In this document: piece after piece, positions 9,262 through 22,054 of the stretch
Layout of the letters: every line of letters begins with the position of its first letter
How positions within the stretch are numbered: position 1 is the stretch's first letter
NCBI GenBank assembly: GCA_002898355.1
Contig: BEHD01000002.1
Coordinates: 1 to 64,000, forward strand
Reading direction: 5' to 3'
DNA: 64,000 bases
Source: an archaeon HR01
GTDB taxonomy: Archaea > Thermoproteota > Nitrososphaeria_A > Caldarchaeales > Caldarchaeaceae
Notes under the pieces: model-generated
Seen by the model: only the letters and a program-made list of their open reading frames with translations
Databases searched by the model: none
What the model was told of the DNA's origin: nothing
Translations under genes and position numbers: made by a program

Positions 9262-9272
9262 CTTATATATTT
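9262..9272 (+). promoter_or_regulatory. TATA-like box for the ABC importer operon
   Basis: CTTATATATTT is centred about 26 bp before the ATG at 9293. This supports that ATG over the upstream in-frame TTG at 9272, and it implies a leaderless transcript for the substrate-binding protein gene and perhaps the whole operon. Confidence 0.55.
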
Positions 9273-9292
9273 TGGAGAAATGTCACTTTGAC

Positions 9293-10825
9293 ATGGCACG
9301 AAGAAAAAAGTTTGAATATCCTGTAAGGGAGTCTGCGAACTTGACAGGCGCCAACTCAGTTTCGCCGACAGACCCATACAATCCCGCTTTTGTTAGGGTA
9401 AGTAGGAGGACAGCTATAGGTATTGGCGCAGCAGTAGCAGTTGTTGCTGTAGCTGGAGGTGTGGCCGCCTTCCTCACATCTAGGCCGCCCACTCAGACTC
9501 AGCCCACCACCCAGACAACGCCGACAGCCACCGCACCGGGCCAGATAACTCTCCGTACAAACGAGCAGTCCTACATGGTGGATGAAAACAAGATTAAAGC
9601 ATTCAAGGAGCAAGTGGGTATTCAGCTGGAGGCAGATATACGTCCGATAGATGAAGCCCGCGCCATCATGCTTGACCCAGCCAACGCATCAAGATACGAT
9701 ATCTACGGCATAGACACCAGCAGCCTCCTGGCCATCAAGGCGGCAGGTGTCACAAAGCCATATCCTCCAAGCGACGTGCCTAGATGGGTGAAGGGGCCGA
9801 TAGACCCGATATTCACAGCTCCGGAGACGAACATAGGCACCAAAGTACCTCCACCGATAGGGCCTACAGGCCCATACATAGCCACCAGCATGATGTATCC
9901 ACATATGTGGGCTGCGTCACCAGACGCCACCAACAAGATGGACGACTATGGACAAAAGGACAAAATGTTCTTCGTCTCACCTATAGACTGGAACTACGAC
10001 TCTGTTCTATGGAACCCCAAATACATCAACCTACCCTACGACCCAGCCACCGGGATATCAACAGGCTCGTGGGGTGTGCTTGTCGACAGGCAGTATAAGG
10101 GAAGAGTGGGCTTCCAAGATATCCCAACCATATCAAGCAACCACTACATCCTGATAATGCTGGCTAACAAGCTGATAGACCGTCTTGAGCGTGGTCCAAA
10201 CGATCTCACACCATCTGAGGTGAAGAAGCTGGTGGATTGGCTTATAGACCATAAGAAAGCCGGGCAGTTCAGAGTCTTCTGGAATGACTTCGCCCAGATA
10301 GTTAGCCTCCATGTTCAGGAGGAGATCTGGGTCTCGGATGGATGGCAGCCTGTGGAGATGTATGTCAGGAACAGCGGAGGTATAGGATTCTATCTTGAGC
10401 CGAACGAGGGATACCGTAACTGGCTGGACGGCGTAGCTCCAACGATAGCGACTCCGTACTATGATGCCGTGATGAAGTACATCGACTGGAAATATAGCGG
10501 CTGGTTCGCCCAGTATAAGGCCAAGTGGCTTGGCTACTACACACCCAACTGGGAATCCGACGAAGTTAAACGGGTTATGGGGCCGGAGCACTGGGGCTGG
10601 TTCTACAAAGCCGAACCGACCTTCATAGAAGTCCCTGTTGAAGAGCATGCGGCATTCGACCCGGTATCCTACGAGTGGAAGATGTCGGGCACACCTAATT
10701 CCAAGGGCTACCGTAGAGACGGCGGAGATATCAAGAGACACAACGAAAGGGTCTCAACCTGGCAGAGATGGCCCCACAACTCGGACGCCTACATCCAAGA
10801 GTGGACAAGGCTTAGAGCTGCCTAA
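9293..10825 (+). CDS. ABC transporter substrate-binding protein, spermidine/putrescine-type
   Basis: About 510 residues. Residues about 35-65 hold SRRTAIGIGAAVAVVAVAGGVAAF, a twin-arginine followed by a hydrophobic segment, so export by Tat or a membrane anchor is likely. A Thr/Pro/Gln-rich linker follows, as in other archaeal surface-anchored binding proteins. The rest reads as a type II periplasmic-binding fold. The three following genes are the ATPase and two permeases of the same importer. No residues fix the ligand; the neighbouring catabolic genes suggest a nitrogenous organic compound. Confidence 0.8.
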   Translation: MARRKKFEYPVRESANLTGANSVSPTDPYNPAFVRVSRRTAIGIGAAVAVVAVAGGVAAFLTSRPPTQTQPTTQTTPTATAPGQITLRTNEQSYMVDENKIKAFKEQVGIQLEADIRPIDEARAIMLDPANASRYDIYGIDTSSLLAIKAAGVTKPYPPSDVPRWVKGPIDPIFTAPETNIGTKVPPPIGPTGPYIATSMMYPHMWAASPDATNKMDDYGQKDKMFFVSPIDWNYDSVLWNPKYINLPYDPATGISTGSWGVLVDRQYKGRVGFQDIPTISSNHYILIMLANKLIDRLERGPNDLTPSEVKKLVDWLIDHKKAGQFRVFWNDFAQIVSLHVQEEIWVSDGWQPVEMYVRNSGGIGFYLEPNEGYRNWLDGVAPTIATPYYDAVMKYIDWKYSGWFAQYKAKWLGYYTPNWESDEVKRVMGPEHWGWFYKAEPTFIEVPVEEHAAFDPVSYEWKMSGTPNSKGYRRDGGDIKRHNERVSTWQRWPHNSDAYIQEWTRLRAA

Positions 10826-10859
10826 ACCTTAAAATCAACCCCTCTTTTTGTGTGGATGA

Positions 10860-11972
10860 ATGTCCTACAGCGTAGAGGCAGAAAATCTGGTAAAAAGGTT
10901 CGGCAAGACTACAGCAGTTGACAACATATCGTTTAAAATTAGGAAGGGAGAGTTCTTCTGCATAATAGGTCCGAGTGGATGTGGGAAGACCACCACTTTA
11001 AGGCTTGTGGCGGGGCTAATCCGTCCTGACGCCGGCAAGATCTACATAAACGGTGAAGACGTTACCAACGTCCCCACCCATAAACGCCCCCTCTCTATGG
11101 TTTTTCAGACATGGGCGCTCTTCCCCCATATGACGGTCTACGAAAACGTTGAGTTCGGACTTAGGATGAGGAATGTTCCCGAGTCGGAGAGACGGAACGC
11201 CACCAAGTGGGCTTTGGGGCTGGTGAAGATGGAGGAGTACGCAAATCGGAAGCCTAGGGAGCTGAGCGGTGGACAGCAGCAGCGTGTAGCTATAGCGCGT
11301 GCCCTAGTCGTGAGGCCTGAGATACTATTACTTGATGAACCGCTCGGAAACCTCGACTTCAAACTGCAGCTGAGGCTGCAGGAAGAGCTTAAACAGATAC
11401 ATAGAGTTACCGGTGTTACATTTCTCTATGTGACCCATGATCAGCGGCAGGCTATGGCTCTAGGCGACACTATAATGGTCATGAACATGGGGGTTATAGA
11501 ACAGCTCGGTAGCCCCTTGGAGCTCTATTCAAACCCATCCAGCGTATTCGTAGCAAAGTTCGTCGGAGAGTCCAACATAGTGGAGGGTTATGTGAAGGCT
11601 GTGGAAGGTGGCAGGACATATGTGGAGACACAGTTAGGGATTTTTCAACTACAGGATGGCTCGGTGAAGACAGGTGATAGGGTCTGGGTCTTTTGGCGTC
11701 CTGAAAGCACACTCATCGGCAACGAGAGCGACAAAGCCGATATCAAGCTCATGGGTGAGGTCCTCGACGTAACCACCGCAGGCTCGGTGACAAACTATAA
11801 GGTTTCGGTGGGAGGGGCTGTTCTAAAGGCCACTGTTAAGGGCCTCCCACTAGACGGTATAGAGATTGGTTCGAAGATCCCGCTCGGATGCAAGAACTCC
11901 AGTCTGAAACTCATTTCAAAGGTCAGCTCCAGCGGATTAGTAGATGTAGAAAGAATAATCCTGGGAGAGTAG
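10860..11972 (+). CDS. ABC transporter ATP-binding protein, PotA-like
   Basis: A 370-residue ATPase. Walker A is GPSGCGKTTT (about 38-47), the Q loop VFQTWALFPHMTV, the signature LSGGQQQRVAIARAL (about 136-150), Walker B ILLLDEPLGNLD and the switch His in YVTHDQ. A C-terminal TOBE-type beta domain (about 240-370) follows, as in PotA, FbpC and MalK-type importers. It energises uptake of the ligand caught by the protein encoded just upstream (34 bp gap). The next permease gene starts two bases after its stop. Confidence 0.9.
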   Translation: MSYSVEAENLVKRFGKTTAVDNISFKIRKGEFFCIIGPSGCGKTTTLRLVAGLIRPDAGKIYINGEDVTNVPTHKRPLSMVFQTWALFPHMTVYENVEFGLRMRNVPESERRNATKWALGLVKMEEYANRKPRELSGGQQQRVAIARALVVRPEILLLDEPLGNLDFKLQLRLQEELKQIHRVTGVTFLYVTHDQRQAMALGDTIMVMNMGVIEQLGSPLELYSNPSSVFVAKFVGESNIVEGYVKAVEGGRTYVETQLGIFQLQDGSVKTGDRVWVFWRPESTLIGNESDKADIKLMGEVLDVTTAGSVTNYKVSVGGAVLKATVKGLPLDGIEIGSKIPLGCKNSSLKLISKVSSSGLVDVERIILGE

Positions 11973-11974
11973 GG

Positions 11975-12841
11975 ATGGGCGAGGAGAAAATAGCACCTAG
12001 AACCATAACGCCTTACATCCTACTGGCTCCGATACTGGCCTTTGTAATAGTCTTCCTGGTGCTGCCGTTAATATTGGTGGGTGTCGTAAGCCTGTACAGG
12101 GCCTCCGGAGCCGGTTACGAGCAGACGCTAACCTTCAACAACTACATACGGTTTTTCAGCGACCCAAACCTATACGGAATCCTGCTCAACACACTCGCCA
12201 ACTCAGCCATCGTGACTATCTTCGCCTTCATACTGGCTTACCCTGTCGCCTACTTCCTAACCATGAAGATTAAAACATTCCGTGCCAAGACCATACTGTT
12301 AATAGCCATGCTTATACCATTCTGGATAGACTTCACCACCAGGTCATTATCATGGATTCCATGGCTCGGGATTCAGGGCATCATAAACCAAGTCCTTACC
12401 GGCCTAGGCATCCTAAAAGAGCCATCACCAATATTCCTATTCTCACCCTTTGCAATGATACTGGTGATGATACAGGGATACACCCTCTTCATGATTGCAC
12501 CCATATTCATAGTGATGAGCAAGATAGACCCAACCCTTTACGAGGCCGCTAAAGCTTTAGGCGCATCACCACTTAAAGTCTTCTACCACATCAATCTCAA
12601 GCTCTGCCTCCCTGGAATTGGTGTTGGAACAGTCTTTGTCTTCCTCTCATCGGTAGCCGACTTTGCAACACCACGCCTGATCGGAGGTCTCGTAACCAGC
12701 ATAGGACAGGTGATCCGCGACCAAGTAGTCTTCCTCAACTTGCCACTTGCGGCAGCAACTTCTGTGATCCTCACCCTGATAGCTCTGGCCATAGTTTTCA
12801 CGGTCTTTAACGTCATGAATATCAGGCAGGTGTTTGAGTAG
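11975..12841 (+). CDS. ABC transporter permease, PotB-like
   Basis: About 289 residues from the ATG at 11975, which follows the ATPase stop by two bases; the longer frame upstream lies inside the ATPase gene. Six transmembrane helices are visible. The cytoplasmic EAA loop reads LYEAAKALGASPLKVFYHINLKLCLPG, which contacts the ATPase. With the following gene it forms the heterodimeric membrane channel of the importer. Confidence 0.85.
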   Translation: MGEEKIAPRTITPYILLAPILAFVIVFLVLPLILVGVVSLYRASGAGYEQTLTFNNYIRFFSDPNLYGILLNTLANSAIVTIFAFILAYPVAYFLTMKIKTFRAKTILLIAMLIPFWIDFTTRSLSWIPWLGIQGIINQVLTGLGILKEPSPIFLFSPFAMILVMIQGYTLFMIAPIFIVMSKIDPTLYEAAKALGASPLKVFYHINLKLCLPGIGVGTVFVFLSSVADFATPRLIGGLVTSIGQVIRDQVVFLNLPLAAATSVILTLIALAIVFTVFNVMNIRQVFE

Positions 12842-12851
12842 GGGGGCTTGC

Positions 12852-13646
12852 ATGCCTAGGGACATATCAAAGATCATTTTGGCTGTCTACACGGCTGGAA
12901 TGGTCTTCTTCATATATGCCCCAATTATTACCATGGTCTTGTTTTCTTTTAACAGCTCGCCGAGAACTGTACCGCCCTTTGACGGGCCGAGCCTACGCTG
13001 GTATGAGGTACTCTTCGGCCAGAAGGCAATATTGTTGGAAGCCTTTACACGGTCGATCACCTTAGCAATAATTACAATGCTGATAGCGACCCCGTTATTC
13101 ACGGCTGCGGGACTGGCGTATAAGAGACGTTTCAGAGGTGACGAGTTTGCGTTCTATCTGGTCACTATAGGGATAATAATGCCGGGAATCACATATAGTC
13201 TCGGCGTCCTTATATTCTACAACACCATAGGGATAGACATATCCCTCTGGACAGCCATACCAGTCCATCTCATATGGGCCGTCCCCTGGGGTCTCATACT
13301 CATGCGAGCAATGATAGACCCCAACATCATATATTATGAGGAAGCCGCCAAAACACTCGGAGCAAGCGACTGGCAGATATTTAGGAGGATTACAATTCCG
13401 TTATTCATGCCAGCAATTCTGGGCGGAGCCCTGTTCGCATTCACGCTCTCCTTCACGGAGCTCATCCGCAGCATCTTTATAGTCTCACCCAATACTTTAC
13501 CCCTCCAAGTCCTGGCCGAAGTAACAGTATGGGGTGTCTCACCCTATATATTCGCTATAGGAACACTGATAGTTCTCATCTCTCTAGCCCTCCTACTCGT
13601 GGCCGGACTACTCCTAAGAGGTGTCTTCGAAAAGCTTCAGATCTGA
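12852..13646 (+). CDS. ABC transporter permease, PotC-like
   Basis: About 264 residues from the ATG at 12852, ten bases after the previous stop. It has six predicted membrane helices and the EAA loop YYEEAAKTLGASDWQIFRRITIPLFMPAI. It ends with a typical cytoplasmic tail after a last hydrophobic helix. It is the second membrane subunit of the polyamine/opine-type importer. The divergent chaperonin gene begins only 13 bp downstream in the same direction, so the two are probably in one operon. Confidence 0.85.
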   Translation: MPRDISKIILAVYTAGMVFFIYAPIITMVLFSFNSSPRTVPPFDGPSLRWYEVLFGQKAILLEAFTRSITLAIITMLIATPLFTAAGLAYKRRFRGDEFAFYLVTIGIIMPGITYSLGVLIFYNTIGIDISLWTAIPVHLIWAVPWGLILMRAMIDPNIIYYEEAAKTLGASDWQIFRRITIPLFMPAILGGALFAFTLSFTELIRSIFIVSPNTLPLQVLAEVTVWGVSPYIFAIGTLIVLISLALLLVAGLLLRGVFEKLQI

Positions 13647-13659
13647 CGGGTAGCCTGCC

Positions 13660-15435
13660 ATGGGCAGAATAACACCGGCCGACATACCATCGCAGTCACA
13701 GATGATAGCCTCCTCGCTCTTCCGCGATGAGCTGGAACAGGAATACATCAAGTATACCGGGCTGAAACGTGGCACAATCCTGAAAGACCATGCAAGAGTC
13801 GTGGAAAAGGATGATATACTCTTCCTCAATGAATGGGTGGTGAAGTATCTTTGCGATATGGCCAGGACAGCTCTGGGGCCTTTCGGACATGATAAAATGG
13901 TCTCGAAAGACTTGGGTGACTTGCCGCCTATTAGGTATGTCTACGTAACCAATGACATATTCGAGTTTCTTAACCTCGTCGAGTTTAGCCACCCTGTTGC
14001 TCGGTTGGCTCTGGATATGGCTAAAGCCGTTGACACCGAGGTGGGGGATGGTGTGGCTTCTGCGCTTGTCCTAGCTGGGGCTTTGGTGACGAGGGGATGC
14101 GACCTTGTCAGAAAGGGTATCCACCCTTCCATCGTCTCCGAAGGCTATGATGAGGCACTAAAGATGTGCATAGGGTTCTTGGAAGAGATGGCAGAACCTA
14201 TCAACGGCTCTGAAAAAAATCTTTATTCAGTGGCATTATCCTCTATAAGGAACAAAGGTGCAGATCTTATCGAGGATGATCTGGCCAAGACTGTGGTTAA
14301 CATCTATAAAAAAATGCGGGGTTCCGGCAAATACTACTTTGACATGTCTGACTTGAAGATTGAGCGGACAATCGGCAAATCCCTATCGGACACGGTCTTT
14401 GTGGATGGGGTTATTTTAAGAAATGAAGTAGTACATGATGGGATGCCCAAGAGGGTTGAGGGCGGGCGCGTAGCCCTGATATCGAAACCCATAGTAACTA
14501 GAGATTTTGACAAGCCAGTCGGATACGACCACATAGTGTTTGAATTTGAGGAAAAGACAGCATACAATAGCTACTCGAGATATAGGGAGAAGGTCTTGCT
14601 CGAATCAGCCGATAAGATAGTTTCCTCCGGTGCCAACGTCCTCTTCCTAACAAAGGGTGTTGACGAGATTGTAATTGATGTGTTGGTAAAGAAGGGTATT
14701 CTCACTGTGAGGAGGGTCGTTCCTGAAGACATGGATAGGATTGCTAGGGCAACAGGGGGAACAGTTGTGGCCTATCCAAGCCAGCTAAGCGGGGAAGTTC
14801 TCGGTTATGCAAAGCTGGTTGAGGAGAGGAAAATAGGTGATAGTGAATGGATAATAGTTGAGGGGGCCTATTCCGGCCCACAATCAATACTTATCACTGC
14901 GCCACATGTTGAGATGGCGAGGGATGCGGAACATCTAATTCTTAACTCGGTTAGAGCACTCTCAAGTCTCGGCGTCGAACCTAAAGTTCTACCGGGTGGG
15001 GGTGTGGCCTTGGTGGAGGCAGCCATCAGACTTAGGAGATCTGCTTGGCGGAGTGATCCCATGAAGGCGGTTGTATTGGAGGCATTTGCAGACGCCCTGG
15101 AACATGTTCATGCGGCTATAGTGGAGAATGCCGGCTACGATGTAGTAAATGTTATGGCGGAGGTTAGGAGGATGCATGAGGAAGGCGCCTCCGATGCGGG
15201 CTTCGATGTGATTTGGGGAGGGTTCAGGAGATTTGTTTCTGCGGGGATTATAGACCCGCTCCCCACTGTGAGGCAAGCACTAACATCTGCAGTTCACTTC
15301 GCTAAAACTATCCTCAAAACCGACAACATCTTTTTCATACCGAGAACTAGGAGGGAGTTAATGGAGAAGAGGAAGGCGGAGAGGAAGAGAAAAGGTAAGA
15401 GACCTGGCGACTGGGTTGAGGAGAAACAGTACTAA
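13660..15435 (+). CDS. Divergent group II chaperonin (thermosome/TCP-1 family) paralog
   Basis: A 591-residue protein that aligns with thermosome subunits from end to end: ALGPFGHDKM (72-80) for the GPKGMDKM motif, DTEVGDGVASALVLAGALV (125-143) for the GDGTT motif, apical-domain sequence, LGYAKLVEERKIG (381-393), VLPGGGVALVEAA (443-455) and a C-terminal intermediate/equatorial domain. Several conserved ATPase elements are altered: NDGATIL becomes NDIFEFL, GDGTT becomes GDGVAS, and the catalytic Asp of the LHDAL segment aligns with Asn429. The C-terminus is a Lys/Arg-rich tail rather than a Gly-Met tail. It follows the ABC permeases by 13 bp. It may be a slow or inactive ATPase, or a specialised folding factor. 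Confidence 0.8.
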   Translation: MGRITPADIPSQSQMIASSLFRDELEQEYIKYTGLKRGTILKDHARVVEKDDILFLNEWVVKYLCDMARTALGPFGHDKMVSKDLGDLPPIRYVYVTNDIFEFLNLVEFSHPVARLALDMAKAVDTEVGDGVASALVLAGALVTRGCDLVRKGIHPSIVSEGYDEALKMCIGFLEEMAEPINGSEKNLYSVALSSIRNKGADLIEDDLAKTVVNIYKKMRGSGKYYFDMSDLKIERTIGKSLSDTVFVDGVILRNEVVHDGMPKRVEGGRVALISKPIVTRDFDKPVGYDHIVFEFEEKTAYNSYSRYREKVLLESADKIVSSGANVLFLTKGVDEIVIDVLVKKGILTVRRVVPEDMDRIARATGGTVVAYPSQLSGEVLGYAKLVEERKIGDSEWIIVEGAYSGPQSILITAPHVEMARDAEHLILNSVRALSSLGVEPKVLPGGGVALVEAAIRLRRSAWRSDPMKAVVLEAFADALEHVHAAIVENAGYDVVNVMAEVRRMHEEGASDAGFDVIWGGFRRFVSAGIIDPLPTVRQALTSAVHFAKTILKTDNIFFIPRTRRELMEKRKAERKRKGKRPGDWVEEKQY

Positions 15436-15490: not shown

Positions 15491-16372
15491 ATGCCAAGGA
15501 AAGAAATCTTCGTAGGGTTCGGTGTTGATGTAGATGCTGTAGCTGGTTGGATAGGGTCTTACGGTGGGGAAGACTCGCCATCCGACATACAGCGTGGAAT
15601 ATTCTCAGGTGAGGTGGGTACGCCTCGGCTACTGAAGCTTTTCAAAAAATTCAAGTTGAAGACGTCTTGGTTTTGGCCGGGCCACTCCATAGAGACTTTT
15701 CCTGAACAGTTCCAGATGTGTGTTGATGAGGGGCATGAGATTGGTGCCCACGGCTACACGCATGAGAACCCGATAGCCATGACTCCTGAGCAGGAGGAGG
15801 CGGTCCTCTCCAAATGTGTCTCATTAATCAAGGAGAAGTCTGGGAAATCACCGAGGGGATACGTGGCTCCGTGGTGGGAGATGTCCAACTATACTATAGA
15901 CCTACTCCTCAAATATGGTTTCAAATACGACCATAGCCAGCACCACCACGACTTCCAACCCTACTACGCGAGAAGACGTGATACATGGTGGAAGATAGAT
16001 TATTCGAAGCCGGCTGAAACATGGATGAAGCCCCTTGTAAAGGGAGAGCCCACAGATTTGGTGGAGATACCTGGCAACTGGTATATGGATGACCTGCCGC
16101 CTATGATGTTCATCAAGAAGGCACCCAATAGTCATGGATGGGTGAGCCCCAGAGATATAGAGCAGCTGTGGAAGGACCAGTTCGACTGGGTCTACAGAGA
16201 ATACGACTACGCTGTATACTGCTTCACCATACATCCAGATGTCTGTGGAAGGCCTCAGAACCTGCTTATGCTTGAGAGGATGATAAGATACATCAACAGG
16301 CACAAGGGCGTTATATGGGCCACCATGGAGGAGATAGCTGAGGACTTTAGGAAGAGAAATCCACGGAAATAA
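15491..16372 (+). CDS. Polysaccharide-deacetylase-family hydrolase
   Basis: A 293-residue NodB-homology protein. The metal and catalytic motifs are visible: [11 protein letters not shown] (motif 1, Asp pair), [12 protein letters not shown] (motif 2, HxxxH) and [11 protein letters not shown] (motif 3). A late His is in FTIHPDVCG. This class includes not only sugar deacetylases but also allantoinase-like (PuuE) and other cyclic-amide hydrolases. Given the flanking ureide- and amide-cleaving enzymes, a C-N bond hydrolase role is more likely here than cell-wall work. A start at 15491 follows a TATA-like TTATATAA near 15456. Confidence 0.75.
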
Positions 16373-16381
16373 CTCATTCCC

Positions 16382-16388
16382 TTTTTTA
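16382..16388 (+). terminator. T-rich stretch between convergent genes
   Basis: A run of six T residues lies in the 13 bp between the deacetylase-like gene and the convergent nitrilase-type gene. Poly-T tracts terminate archaeal transcription on the coding strand, so it may end the rightward operon. The evidence is the run alone. Confidence 0.3.
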
Positions 16389-17225
16389 GGTCTGCTGGGA
16401 AAGCTCCACGTAAAGGTGGGGAGCCCTATCCCTCAGAAACGGTGCATATTTTCTTCTCTCCTGCACAAAGTCCAAGTCCAGCTCCTGAACTAGGACATGT
16501 TCCTCGCTAGGTGCGATGGCCAGCCTCTCTCCCTTAGGGTTGAATATACAGCTCTTTCCATAGTATGTGGCGGGCTGCTCAGGAAACTCTCTGCCACATC
16601 TATTGACGCCGCAGACATAGATTGTGTTAAAAGCTGCGTGGGCTGCCAGCTCCAGCTCCCACAGCTCAGGGTAGAACCCTGTGCATGTTGGCACGAAGAC
16701 TACCTCGGCACCCTTCAACGCCATTATTCTAGGCCCCTCAGGGAAGTGCCTGTCATAGCAGATTATCACGCCAAATTTCACACCTTGGTCTTGGAAGACT
16801 GGATAACCTAGATTACCAACCTTGAAGTAGAACTTCTCGTTGTATCCGATTAGCTGGGGGATGTGTGTCTTACGGTACTTCCCAATTAGCTCACCCCTGT
16901 GGCTTATTATAGCCGCCGTGTTATAGTATGTGCCCGGCACCGCGGTATCCTCTTCGAAGATGGGTGCTATAATCGTTACTCCGTATCTCTTGGCCGCATC
17001 CGCCAGCCTATCTGTGGTGGGGCCTGGTATAGTCTCGGCTAGAGAGAAGAACTCTATCCTCTGCTGGACGCAGAAGTAGGGTGAGAAGAAAAGCTCCTGC
17101 AGGCAGATTATCTTCGCGCCGTCTCCAGCTGCCTCGCCTATGAGACCCACGGCCTTTTCCACGTTCTTCTCCTTCTCCGGCTCTGAGTTCATCTGTATAA
17201 GCCCTACCCTTATCGTCCGGGACAT
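16386..17225 (-). CDS. Nitrilase-superfamily amidase, beta-ureidopropionase/N-carbamoyl amidohydrolase-like
   Basis: A 279-residue carbon-nitrogen hydrolase. The catalytic triad is present: Glu44 in IICLQELFFSPYF, Lys in IGKYRKTHIPQ, and Cys in GVIICYDRHFPEGPR. The best family match by pattern is to N-carbamoylputrescine amidase and beta-ureidopropionase, which split N-carbamoyl amines to amine, CO2 and ammonia. The region also holds a dihydropyrimidinase and a second, M20-type carbamoylase. It could act on N-carbamoyl-beta-alanine or a carbamoyl-polyamine. It shares a leftward unit with the asparaginase 21 bp upstream. Confidence 0.8.
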   Translation of the reverse strand: MSRTIRVGLIQMNSEPEKEKNVEKAVGLIGEAAGDGAKIICLQELFFSPYFCVQQRIEFFSLAETIPGPTTDRLADAAKRYGVTIIAPIFEEDTAVPGTYYNTAAIISHRGELIGKYRKTHIPQLIGYNEKFYFKVGNLGYPVFQDQGVKFGVIICYDRHFPEGPRIMALKGAEVVFVPTCTGFYPELWELELAAHAAFNTIYVCGVNRCGREFPEQPATYYGKSCIFNPKGERLAIAPSEEHVLVQELDLDFVQERRKYAPFLRDRAPHLYVELSQQT

Positions 17226-17246: not shown

Positions 17247-18254
17247 CTATTTATAAATGTTGGATATCTCGCCTGCTATGTTGGTGAGCATAAGCTTTCT
17301 AACATCTCCACCTTGACCCATGCACCACATTAGCTTGACCACCGCAGTCTCCGGCAGCATGTCGGATGTTGGTATGATGTTTTTGATCTCTAAAATCCTC
17401 TTGTCCAGAGCATATACTCCCAGCTTCTCACCTCCGTAGAGGCACTGTGTGGTGATGACGACGGGTTTTCCGTAACCCTCCACAACGGCTAGGAATTTGT
17501 CGTCGGTTTTTATGTGTCCTAGGCCGGTGCCCTCCACCACCACACCATCGTATAGGGAGAGGATTTGGGACATCGCCTCATCTGTAAGGCTGGGGCTCAT
17601 CTTTATCAGGCCTACCCGTGGGTTGAGCTCGGTCTTCAAATATGCTCTTCTCTCCCCCCTTCGAACCCTAGACTCTGAGAGCTGTATGTCCCCATCCACC
17701 ACACGCCCCAGAGGCTCCTCGTTTATGCTGGCAAAAGCGTTGACCGCGTGGGAGTGGATTTTTTTCGCCCTCGTCCCCTTGATTATCAGTTTCCGCTCAC
17801 CCATCACATCCTCCGAGAAGACCACACAGACATGGCCAAGGTCTGCATAGGCCGCAACCTTTATGGCAGCCCGGACATTCCCCGGCCCGTCGCTGCCCGG
17901 GTTTCCCCCAGGTATCATTGCGCCTGTCATGACTACTGGGACCTCTGGGTAACCCAGCATGAAGCTGAGGGCGGAGGCTGTATATTGCATGGTATCTGTT
18001 CCATGTAGGACTACTACGCCATCTACGCCTTCGTGGATAGACCTGTAGACGGAGTCCGCCACAGTCTGCCAGTCCCTAGGTGTGAAGTCGAAGCTGGCCT
18101 TCACCATTATCTCCCTTATCTCATAGTCTACACCCTCCACCCTTACTCCTGGAAAGGTCTGCTTATAGGATAGGATCTCAGCGCCTACCCTATCGTCGAA
18201 TGTCTTTGAAAGTATTGTTCCCCCTGTAGCTAGTACGTGGACGTATCTGGTCAT
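17247..18254 (-). CDS. Asparaginase-family amidohydrolase
   Basis: About 335 residues from the ATG at 18254; the open frame extends 44 codons further, but homology starts at this ATG (MTRYVHVLATGGTI). The first catalytic Thr is in ATGGTI, the second motif is VVLHGTDTMQYTAS with Thr and Asp, and a Lys motif follows. L-asparaginase would release ammonia from asparagine. GatD of the archaeal Glu-tRNA(Gln) amidotransferase is a related alternative, but its N-terminal domain and a gatE neighbour are missing, so a catabolic role is favoured. Confidence 0.75.
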   Translation of the reverse strand: MTRYVHVLATGGTILSKTFDDRVGAEILSYKQTFPGVRVEGVDYEIREIMVKASFDFTPRDWQTVADSVYRSIHEGVDGVVVLHGTDTMQYTASALSFMLGYPEVPVVMTGAMIPGGNPGSDGPGNVRAAIKVAAYADLGHVCVVFSEDVMGERKLIIKGTRAKKIHSHAVNAFASINEEPLGRVVDGDIQLSESRVRRGERRAYLKTELNPRVGLIKMSPSLTDEAMSQILSLYDGVVVEGTGLGHIKTDDKFLAVVEGYGKPVVITTQCLYGGEKLGVYALDKRILEIKNIIPTSDMLPETAVVKLMWCMGQGGDVRKLMLTNIAGEISNIYK

Positions 18255-18362
18255 GATGTTGTAATGGGAGGGAGCGTATTTATTTTTTATCTGAACTGAA
18301 GAGAGTACTGTTAGGGAGCTAGGCGTTATGGCAGACCCGCCGAGTTGACTGAGAAGCCATAT

Positions 18363-19403
18363 ATGCACGGATACAGCATTCAGCACATGACCGAATGGCA
18401 GAGAGCGAAGACCCTGATCGTTAGCGGCGATGAGATGAAGGGGCTGGTTACGATGGAAGAGGTGATCTCGTTAGTTGAACAGGCATATGCGGCTCACGCT
18501 AGGGGAAATTATATCATGGAGCCGAAGACCCACATCATCATAGGAAAGTACTCGGGTGAGTGGGAGGCTATGCCCTCATATCTGGGAGAGCCCGAGTCAT
18601 CAGCCTGCAAGTGGGTGGCCATCAGGGAGAAAAATAGAGAACGTTTCGGGCTTCCAACGGTCATGTCCACCATAGTCTACACCGACCCTGAAACAGGGTA
18701 TCCCCTCATGATATGCGACGGCACATACCATACCAACATGCGGACAGGTGCGGCAGCAGCCGTATCTGTAAAGTGGATGGCTAGAAAGAATTCTAGGGTG
18801 GCGGGTTTTGTAGGTGCGGGAGCCGTTGCGGTGGGCACGTTGAGAGCGCTAAATACTCTGAACATCTTCAAGAAAGTGCTTGTGTGGAGTAGGAGGCGGG
18901 AGAACGCCGAAGGGTTCATCAAACGCATGCAGGATGAGGTGAAGATGGATTTGATGGCCGTTGATAGTGTCCGTGAGGCCGTGGCGGAATCAGATGTGGT
19001 TGTTACGCAGACGCCTGCCATGGAGCCGGTAGTTAGGGATGAGTGGGTGAGGGAGGGTACTCACATAGCGGCCATGGGTGCCGACATGGAGGGGAAGCAG
19101 GAGCTTGAAGGGAAGCTGTTGAAGAGATGCCGTATCTTCGTGGACGACCTCAGGCAATGTGTTAGGGATGGGGAGATTAATGTTCCTCTAAGGAAGGGTG
19201 AGCTAAGGGTTGAGGATGTGGTGGGTAGTATAGGGGAGATAATAATCGGTAGAAAGATGGGTAGGCTTTCAGAAGACGATATCACTGTCTTCGACTCAAC
19301 AGGTATAGCGCTCCAAGATGCTGCGGTCATAACACTCGAGTACAGGCGTGCCAGAGAGAGGGGCGTGGGTGTTGAGAAGAGGATGATAGTCTCCCAGACC
19401 TAG
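18363..19403 (+). CDS. Ornithine cyclodeaminase/mu-crystallin family NAD(P)-dependent enzyme
   Basis: About 346 residues. Family features are VTMEEVISLVEQAYAAHARG, the substrate region MRTGAAAAVSVKWMAR, and a Rossmann fold opening with VAGFVGAGAVAVGTL. Members include ornithine cyclodeaminase, alanine dehydrogenase and pyrroline-2-carboxylate reductase. The context of amide and ureide hydrolases fits release or reduction of an amino or imino acid. The start is uncertain: TTG 18345, ATG 18363 or ATG 18387 are all in frame, the last fitting the family N-terminus best. Its promoter region is shared with the divergent asparaginase gene. Confidence 0.8.
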   Translation: MHGYSIQHMTEWQRAKTLIVSGDEMKGLVTMEEVISLVEQAYAAHARGNYIMEPKTHIIIGKYSGEWEAMPSYLGEPESSACKWVAIREKNRERFGLPTVMSTIVYTDPETGYPLMICDGTYHTNMRTGAAAAVSVKWMARKNSRVAGFVGAGAVAVGTLRALNTLNIFKKVLVWSRRRENAEGFIKRMQDEVKMDLMAVDSVREAVAESDVVVTQTPAMEPVVRDEWVREGTHIAAMGADMEGKQELEGKLLKRCRIFVDDLRQCVRDGEINVPLRKGELRVEDVVGSIGEIIIGRKMGRLSEDDITVFDSTGIALQDAAVITLEYRRARERGVGVEKRMIVSQT

Positions 19404-20644: not shown

Positions 20645-22054
20645 TCACCGTGCGCTGTGGAGTATCTGCTCGTCTATCTGGGCCTTCACAAATTTCCCTA
20701 TCCCGGGTTTGCCGAGGAACTGCTCATTCTCAACTATGATTCGGCCACGGAGGATGGTCATCGACGGCCAGCCCTTAATACTCATCCCCTCGTAGACGCT
20801 CAAGTCAGTCCCCATGTGGAGGTTCTCGGCGTTGAGGGAATGCTCTCTGTTGGGGTCTATAAGGACTAGGTCGGCGTCTGAGCCTGGCGCTATCACTCCC
20901 TTCCTCGGGTAGAGGCCAAATATTTTGGCCGCATTAGTGCTGACCACGTCCACGAACCTTGCGAGGGACATCCCACGTCTAATCACTCCCTCGTAGAATA
21001 TGATGGGGACACGCACCTCAGAGCCTGGAAATCCGTTGGGTATCTTGGTGAATACCCCTGCGAACTCCTCCTTCTGACTCTTGGTGAAGGCTACGTGGTC
21101 CGAGCCGACTGTCTGTATCTTGCCTACTATAAGACCACTCCATAAGGCTTCGATATCTTCCTTCTTTCTTAGAGGTGGGCTGCACATGTAGTATATGCCT
21201 CTCTCGGGCGGGTCGAAGGTCTCGTCGGTCAGGACTAGGTAGTGGGGGCATGTCTCCACAAAGACAGGTAGGCCTCTCAGACGGTACTGCGCAACTATCT
21301 CATGCCCCTCACGAGTTGACTGGTGAACTATGTATGTTCTAGCGCCCGTTATCTCTGCGATATTCACCGCCATCTGGATGGCCAGGTTTTCGACTAGGTT
21401 GGGCTTGGCCTGTCCGTGATAGCGTGGCTCCACCTTCCCATCGCGGACAAACTCCTCCTGCATACCCTCTCCGATGAACCCGTTCTCAGCATGTATTGTG
21501 ACGATGCCTCCCAGCTCCTTCGCCCTTCTCATCACTTGGAAGAGTATCCAGTCATCGGCCATCCAGCCCTGATGCCTATATATCATGAAGACCTTAAACC
21601 CTGGCACACCATACTCCATCGTCTCCTTCATACCCCTCATAACCCTGCCCATGTCAGAGAAGTCGCTGATTATCGGCTTGGTTGTGAAGTCTATCACGGA
21701 AAGCTGTCCTGCTCTCGCCATCTGCTTCTTGGTGGCTGCGAGAAGTGACTCACCCTTCTCCTGTGGGGCGAAATCTATCGTGGTGGTCGTCCCGCCTATG
21801 GCTGAAGCTATGGTTCCTATATCCCAGGTCTCCTTGGGCTTCGCACCCATGAAATAGAGCTCATAGTGGGTGTGGGGGTCTATTCCGCCTGGTATCACTA
21901 TTTTTCCACGGGCATCTACAATCTTCTCAGCTGAGGCCGATGCGAGGCTGCCCACGTGGACGATCTTTTCACCGGACACACCGATGTCTGTCTCGGCGAC
22001 CCATCCGGGACCTACTACAGTCCCGCCTGATATTACTAAATCCAGCCTGGACAA
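20645..22054 (-). CDS. Dihydropyrimidinase/hydantoinase
   Basis: A 469-residue cyclic amidohydrolase. The binuclear zinc site is complete: PGGIDPHTHYEL (HxH), VPGFKVFMIYRHQG (carboxylated Lys), VTIHAENG and YIVHQSTREG (His residues), and TVGSDHVAFTKSQK (Asp). The TTG start gives the natural N-terminus (DLVISGGTVVGPG). It opens dihydropyrimidine or hydantoin rings to N-carbamoyl amino acids. The downstream M20 carbamoylase and the nitrilase-type gene would take the product further. It is probably the first gene of the leftward unit ending at 19400. Confidence 0.9.
   Translation of the reverse strand: MSRLDLVISGGTVVGPGWVAETDIGVSGEKIVHVGSLASASAEKIVDARGKIVIPGGIDPHTHYELYFMGAKPKETWDIGTIASAIGGTTTTIDFAPQEKGESLLAATKKQMARAGQLSVIDFTTKPIISDFSDMGRVMRGMKETMEYGVPGFKVFMIYRHQGWMADDWILFQVMRRAKELGGIVTIHAENGFIGEGMQEEFVRDGKVEPRYHGQAKPNLVENLAIQMAVNIAEITGARTYIVHQSTREGHEIVAQYRLRGLPVFVETCPHYLVLTDETFDPPERGIYYMCSPPLRKKEDIEALWSGLIVGKIQTVGSDHVAFTKSQKEEFAGVFTKIPNGFPGSEVRVPIIFYEGVIRRGMSLARFVDVVSTNAAKIFGLYPRKGVIAPGSDADLVLIDPNREHSLNAENLHMGTDLSVYEGMSIKGWPSMTILRGRIIVENEQFLGKPGIGKFVKAQIDEQILHSAR

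Follow-up and report, generated by a model that had tools for sequence, protein, structure and literature searches.

Divergent group II chaperonins encoded beside ABC importers in the order of the archaeon HR01

The window analyzed here, a stretch of 64,000 nucleotides from the archaeon HR01, carries a divergent paralog of the thermosome immediately behind the genes of a Pot-type ABC importer. This arrangement recurs across the order, a group of hot-spring archaea: with linkage defined as a chaperonin gene within 5 kb of an ABC importer permease or solute-binding-protein (SBP) gene, 28 of 31 divergent chaperonin genes from the order and one outside genome are linked, as against 0 of 28 canonical copies (Fisher p ~1e-13, a value that is overstated since related genomes are non-independent). 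Together with a survey of the window's SBP family and a permease tree, both described below, this count strongly supports a functional tie between chaperonin and importer. We tentatively propose that the window gene encodes a private chaperonin of the adjoining importer, slow- or non-cycling, with the SBP as its likeliest client.

The chaperonin gene and its neighbors

The window cluster contains a complete Pot-type set of SBP, ATPase and two permeases (Table 1). The SBP itself has no Pfam match, and the real start of the PotB-like permease probably lies downstream of the listed 11888. The PotC-like permease gene ends at 13646 and the chaperonin gene starts at 13660, which leaves a gap of 13 bp, the spacing that the initial annotation had given. 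The TATA-like sequence CTTATATA is found 5' of the SBP gene and once more between the chaperonin and the following gene, while CTTATATAA lies just 5' of the deacetylase gene, which may therefore have its own promoter. Because TATA-like elements precede the SBP gene and follow the chaperonin, 9272-15435 may be a single transcription unit of which the chaperonin gene is the last. An ornithine cyclodeaminase-family protein is also encoded near the importer, in addition to the catabolic neighbors listed in Table 1. Separately, the minus strand encodes at 17247-18386 an asparaginase/GatD-like protein that falls under both GatD cut-offs and is possibly a catabolic amidase.

Table 1. Features of the importer and chaperonin cluster in the window
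Feature	Coordinates	Strand	Basis and remarks
SBP with Tat-like N-terminal signal VSRRTAIGIGAAVAVVAVAGG	9272..10825	+	29-30% identity to SBP_bac_8-matching SBPs
ABC importer ATPase, PotA-like	10860..11972	+	Pfam ABC_tran 130 bits; PotA 354 bits against a cut-off of 482
PotB-like permease	11888..12841	+	Pfam and NCBIfam; listed start overlaps the ATPase gene
PotC-like permease	12834..13646	+	Pfam, NCBIfam; in a clade of chaperonin-linked permeases only
Divergent group II chaperonin (thermosome paralog)	13660..15435	+	591 aa, ATG start; Pfam, alignments, AlphaFold, Foldseek
Polysaccharide deacetylase-type protein	15491..16372	+	nearest NCBIfam model allantoinase PuuE, under cut-off
Carbon-nitrogen hydrolase, N-carbamoylputrescine amidase-like (catabolic neighbor)	16386..17225	-	Pfam, NCBIfam
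Dihydropyrimidinase/D-hydantoinase (catabolic neighbor)	20645..22054	-	TIGR02033 452 bits, above the cut-off of 393

Kinship with group II chaperonins along the full length of the protein, as first annotated, was borne out by the Pfam profile Cpn60_TCP1 (PF00118), which scores 371 bits over residues 66-557 and profile positions 3-485 of 490, and by the fold of the predicted model. The NCBIfam thermosome models that were compared (TIGR02339, NF041082 and NF041083) align to residues 40-557, and the protein lies under the cut-off of every one (score/cut-off of 361/450, 361/400 and 353/671 bits); CCT models score less than thermosome models, and identity to canonical copies is 30-34%. The AlphaFold model has a mean pLDDT of 83 and a complete chaperonin fold, in which confidence is low for the last 13 residues and for most of the N-terminal 39. 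A Foldseek search with this model returned the Thermococcus KS-1 chaperonin 1q3r as the top solved match, at a target TM-score of 0.90, and equatorial, intermediate and apical domains are predicted as in solved thermosomes. The apical and lid regions are kept in the sequence and the predicted model, as are the N- and C-terminal segments beside the intersubunit strands. Close orthologs were absent from 80 relatives, from 398 genomes of the phylum and from a scan of a genome-contig collection, whose one match was a GroEL-like Treponema protein; the best hits show at most 38% identity, and those examined have canonical motifs.

Housekeeping thermosome subunits form a double ring of 8- or 9-fold symmetry, the lid of which is closed by ATP. 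In the window chaperonin NDGATIL is replaced by NDIFEFL with D99 retained, GDGTT(T/S) by GDGVAS with D130 retained, and the catalytic Asp of the (K/N/H)DA(L/I) segment by N429, an assignment made by alignment to the Thermococcus KS-1 chaperonin and to canonical copies from the same genome and from relatives. All three alterations had been noted in the initial annotation and hold residue by residue in these alignments, including the thermosome alignment that it had called for, which places Asn, and no Asp, at position 429. Lys199, within NKG, is likewise retained and corresponds in the alignment to the conserved Lys of TSMxSK. With D99 and D130 remaining, the protein may still bind ATP. In the same genome, NDGATIL, GDGTT and the catalytic Asp are all intact in the canonical copies, so the changes are not a quirk of the lineage.

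The HR01 genome (1.76 Mb, 32 contigs) encodes six full chaperonins. Two are canonical (C3:101656 and C5:69346), neither of them in an ABC-importer cluster, and four are divergent (the window gene, C5:113611, C11:64469 and C8:75788-77194), each within such a cluster. Importers of the BPD_transp_1 class number roughly a dozen in this genome, so only some importers carry a chaperonin.

Linkage to several types of importer

Linked loci comprise importers of four types. Type 1, the Pot-type with an SBP_bac_8-like SBP, is found in the window, at the C8 locus of HR01, in G001, G004 and G030, in six genomes of genus g7 and in G229. Type 2 has an SBP of the SBP_bac_1/8 type and comprises the C5 and C11 loci of HR01 and a locus in G002; at C11 (HyuA and HyuB) and in G002, other genes lie between chaperonin and importer. 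Type 3 consists of sugar importers with a Peripla_BP_4 SBP and mostly an FGGY kinase (G006, G011, G021, G024, G029, G033, G035, G037 and G038), and type 4 of branched-chain-amino-acid-like (Liv) importers (G001 and G004, with fragments in G003). The three divergent copies scored as unlinked lie in sugar-kinase clusters homologous to linked ones, with no importer gene in the sequence examined. In regions L093, L094 and L158-L163, from several genera of the order, a sugar ABC importer, an FGGY kinase, an aldehyde ferredoxin oxidoreductase and a divergent chaperonin form a conserved set. In the Liv-type clusters, the SBP gene and the chaperonin are separated by the gene of an 890-aa protein (L075 4892-7564, L076 6023-8683) that matches SBP_bac_5 weakly.

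The tie was also approached from the importer side. With the window SBP as query, 11 loci, counting the window itself, were recovered from the 44 genomes of the order, and 11 of 11 have a divergent chaperonin. A profile of the SBP family run on 398 genomes of the phylum gave 12 loci, every one of which adjoins a divergent chaperonin; the twelfth lies outside the order, in G229 (region L209), where a second divergent chaperonin adjoins an SBP and a permease (L259). In a permease tree the 11 chaperonin-linked PotC proteins, the window's among them, form one clade (support 100/99) separate from 12 unlinked ones. At most loci the SBP gene is the importer gene closest to the chaperonin, while gene orientation and the immediate neighbor of the chaperonin vary.

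Chaperonin trees derive the type 3 and type 4 proteins from the canonical beta clade and place the Pot-type and related chaperonins in a far group (support 96/90 in the careful tree), from which it follows that linkage arose at least three times. The far group has long branches and its inner order is unsafe: the window chaperonin and the Pot-linked proteins (C8 of HR01, G001, G004, G030 and the six of g7) form no clade in the best tree, and such a clade is not rejected by the AU test (p 0.275). The N-terminal extension conserved in the Pot-linked clade was not found in the window chaperonin with a profile, and so does not serve as proof of orthology with that clade.

The active sites follow these groups. 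Among the 16 far-group proteins an intact GDGTT is present in none, and in 14 of them N, H, S, C or K stands in place of the catalytic Asp; the C8 and C5 proteins of HR01 keep this Asp and have lost the Asp of the NDG motif. Loss of ATP hydrolysis is therefore likely in the Pot-type lineage, as judged from active-site residues. The sugar-linked and Liv-linked chaperonins keep the catalytic Asp, with the GDGTT site in most of them reading GDGTK (type 3) or GDGVT (type 4), and the linked types therefore cannot all share a non-cycling mechanism. Six orthologs from the Pot-linked clade in genus g7 show strong purifying selection (dN/dS 0.06-0.12) and are therefore functional genes; these values and the open frame of 591 codons rule out a pseudogene.

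That the divergent protein is a specialized subunit of the ordinary thermosome, serving stress or bulk folding, and that its position is a regulatory convenience by which it is expressed with the nutrient, is an unlikely alternative. Thermosomes are hetero-oligomers, and the complete fold and the retained segments beside the intersubunit strands suit a subunit, but such a role leaves unexplained both the repeated, independent linkage to several importer types and the lack of linkage of canonical subunits.

A passive origin, in which linkage is a by-product of mobile cassettes spread by gene transfer or proviruses with no direct interaction, appears very improbable. It draws on a list of provirus-encoded genes of Caldarchaeales (PMC10547907, Table 3) that holds an archaeal chaperonin, spermidine/putrescine ABC proteins, N-methylhydantoinase and hydantoin racemase. 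Against it, linkage survives rearranged orientation and arose independently with different importers, and linked chaperonin genes are under purifying selection. PMC10547907 treats these items as separate provirus cargo, with the chaperonin under 'heat tolerance', and differs from the set described here in making no mention of a link, of ATPase changes or of conservation; its entries may represent this very cluster, recorded without notice of the linkage. It was the only near match in a literature search, of thin coverage for subscription papers, in which no account of an ABC importer coupled to a chaperonin turned up. The present results confirm the initial observation on the window chaperonin and extend its interpretation, which is partly supported.

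Degeneracy of the active site and importer linkage are separate traits. The divergent chaperonins examined in families f5, f10, f19, f31, f45 and f58 include none near an importer SBP or permease, so proximity to importers is not a general feature of degenerate chaperonins. Scattered unlinked homologs, which the initial annotation had held to count against its proposal, do not occur within the linked lineage; it is the degenerate chaperonins of other families that are unlinked. In other families of the phylum (L299-L316) we observed sites such as KNGVTIL and GDGTNR and a change of the catalytic Asp to Lys or Asn, and in three genomes of f58 examined a 202-aa gene precedes the degenerate chaperonin gene. 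In draft genomes (G324, G396, G223, G225, G274 and others), contig ends often truncate canonical thermosome genes, probably from collapse of paralogous copies in assembly, and copy counts from such drafts are unsafe.

A putative private chaperonin of the importer

In the mechanism that we favor, newly made importer parts would be captured in the cytoplasm by the chaperonin, which would hold or fold them without the normal ATP-driven cycle of opening and closing, either as a ring of its own or as a specialized subunit that hands clients to the canonical thermosome. The likeliest client would be the SBP, since its gene is the usual and nearest neighbor and its Tat-like signal implies that it folds in the cytoplasm, as proteins exported by the Tat pathway have to be folded first. 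RR-type (Tat-like) signals are present on SBPs at linked loci, that of G229 included. In the HR01 genome three of five unlinked SBPs bear them too, which rules out such a signal as a mark specific to linked SBPs and weighs against the favored mechanism. Against it stand further the retention of D99 and D130, the catalytic Asp of the sugar-linked and Liv-linked chaperonins, the variable gene orientation and neighbors, the intervening genes at C11 and in G002, and the three sugar-type loci in which no importer gene was seen.

The proposal of a specialized chaperonin, or a non-cycling scaffold for the transporter or the catabolic enzymes, made in the initial annotation, holds up in part. The tie to the importer is strongly supported; since the window chaperonin keeps D99 and D130, its non-cycling state is a presumption; and a scaffold for the catabolic enzymes is less favored because from cluster to cluster these enzymes change and the importer stays. 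It is accordingly rather unlikely that the chaperonin serves nearby enzymes (hydantoinase, carbamoylase, racemase and the like) with the importer carried along in one pathway cassette. Hydantoin-type enzymes do lie near most Pot-type clusters, as the dihydropyrimidinase in the window, HyuA and HyuB at C11 of HR01, and hydantoin racemase, HyuA and S-Me-THD proteins at other Pot-type loci. However, sugar-linked loci have an FGGY kinase and aldehyde ferredoxin oxidoreductase instead, and in G229 neither kind of enzyme is nearby, which leaves the importer as the element constant across loci.

Improbable, too, is a regulator that senses a nucleotide or ligand, or a membrane scaffold, acting on the assembled importer with no part in folding. 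The chaperonin gene often adjoins permease or ATPase genes, as in the window and at C5 of HR01, and the window protein still has two active-site Asp residues together with the conserved Lys, but the apical and lid regions that it also keeps would be superfluous in a pure regulator, and a regulatory domain is absent.

A broader form of the private-chaperonin proposal is more doubtful. The order may possess a family of such chaperonins, each devoted to one of several nutrient importers and evolved repeatedly from the thermosome, of which the Pot-type lineage, largely without hydrolysis, would prepare Tat-exported SBPs. Chaperonins are regarded as general folding machines, and dedicated, single-client archaeal ones would depart from that view, if confirmed. 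If the pairing is real, such chaperonins arose several times in archaea and partly lost ATP hydrolysis, and the devotion of a chaperonin to one client, its function without an ATP cycle and the preparation of folded proteins for archaeal Tat export would become testable. For uncultured archaea, linkage to a chaperonin gene also offers a practical hint at what an importer transports and how it is made.

Comparison with known systems

With the thermosome, represented by Thermococcus KS-1 1q3r, the window chaperonin shares homology over its full length, the three-domain fold, the built-in lid and two of three active-site Asp residues; it differs in having Asn for the catalytic Asp, in its altered GDGTT and NDGATIL motifs and in its location within an importer operon. 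The genes of the importer in turn run as in the PotABCD-type spermidine/putrescine system, from the SBP through the ATPase to the two permeases. The window ATPase and permeases score best with the NCBIfam models PotA, PotB and PotC, yet all subunits fall under the cut-offs, a chaperonin gene is added, and the neighbors suggest cyclic ureides or hydantoins, not polyamines. Our best guess for the cargo, from this gene context, is a hydantoin, a ureide or a similar cyclic amide; polyamines are less likely.

The proposed private family would find its functional counterpart in the BBS chaperonins of eukaryotes, chaperonin-like proteins with an altered ATP-hydrolysis motif that serve assembly of the BBSome (PMC5534436). 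MKKS/BBS6, BBS10 and BBS12 are likewise diverged group II paralogs devoted to one membrane-traffic complex, a comparison solely of how the two sets would work. The BBS proteins are derived from CCT8 and act with CCT, whereas the client of the archaeal set is proposed from its gene neighborhood, and the likeness drawn here is one of function.
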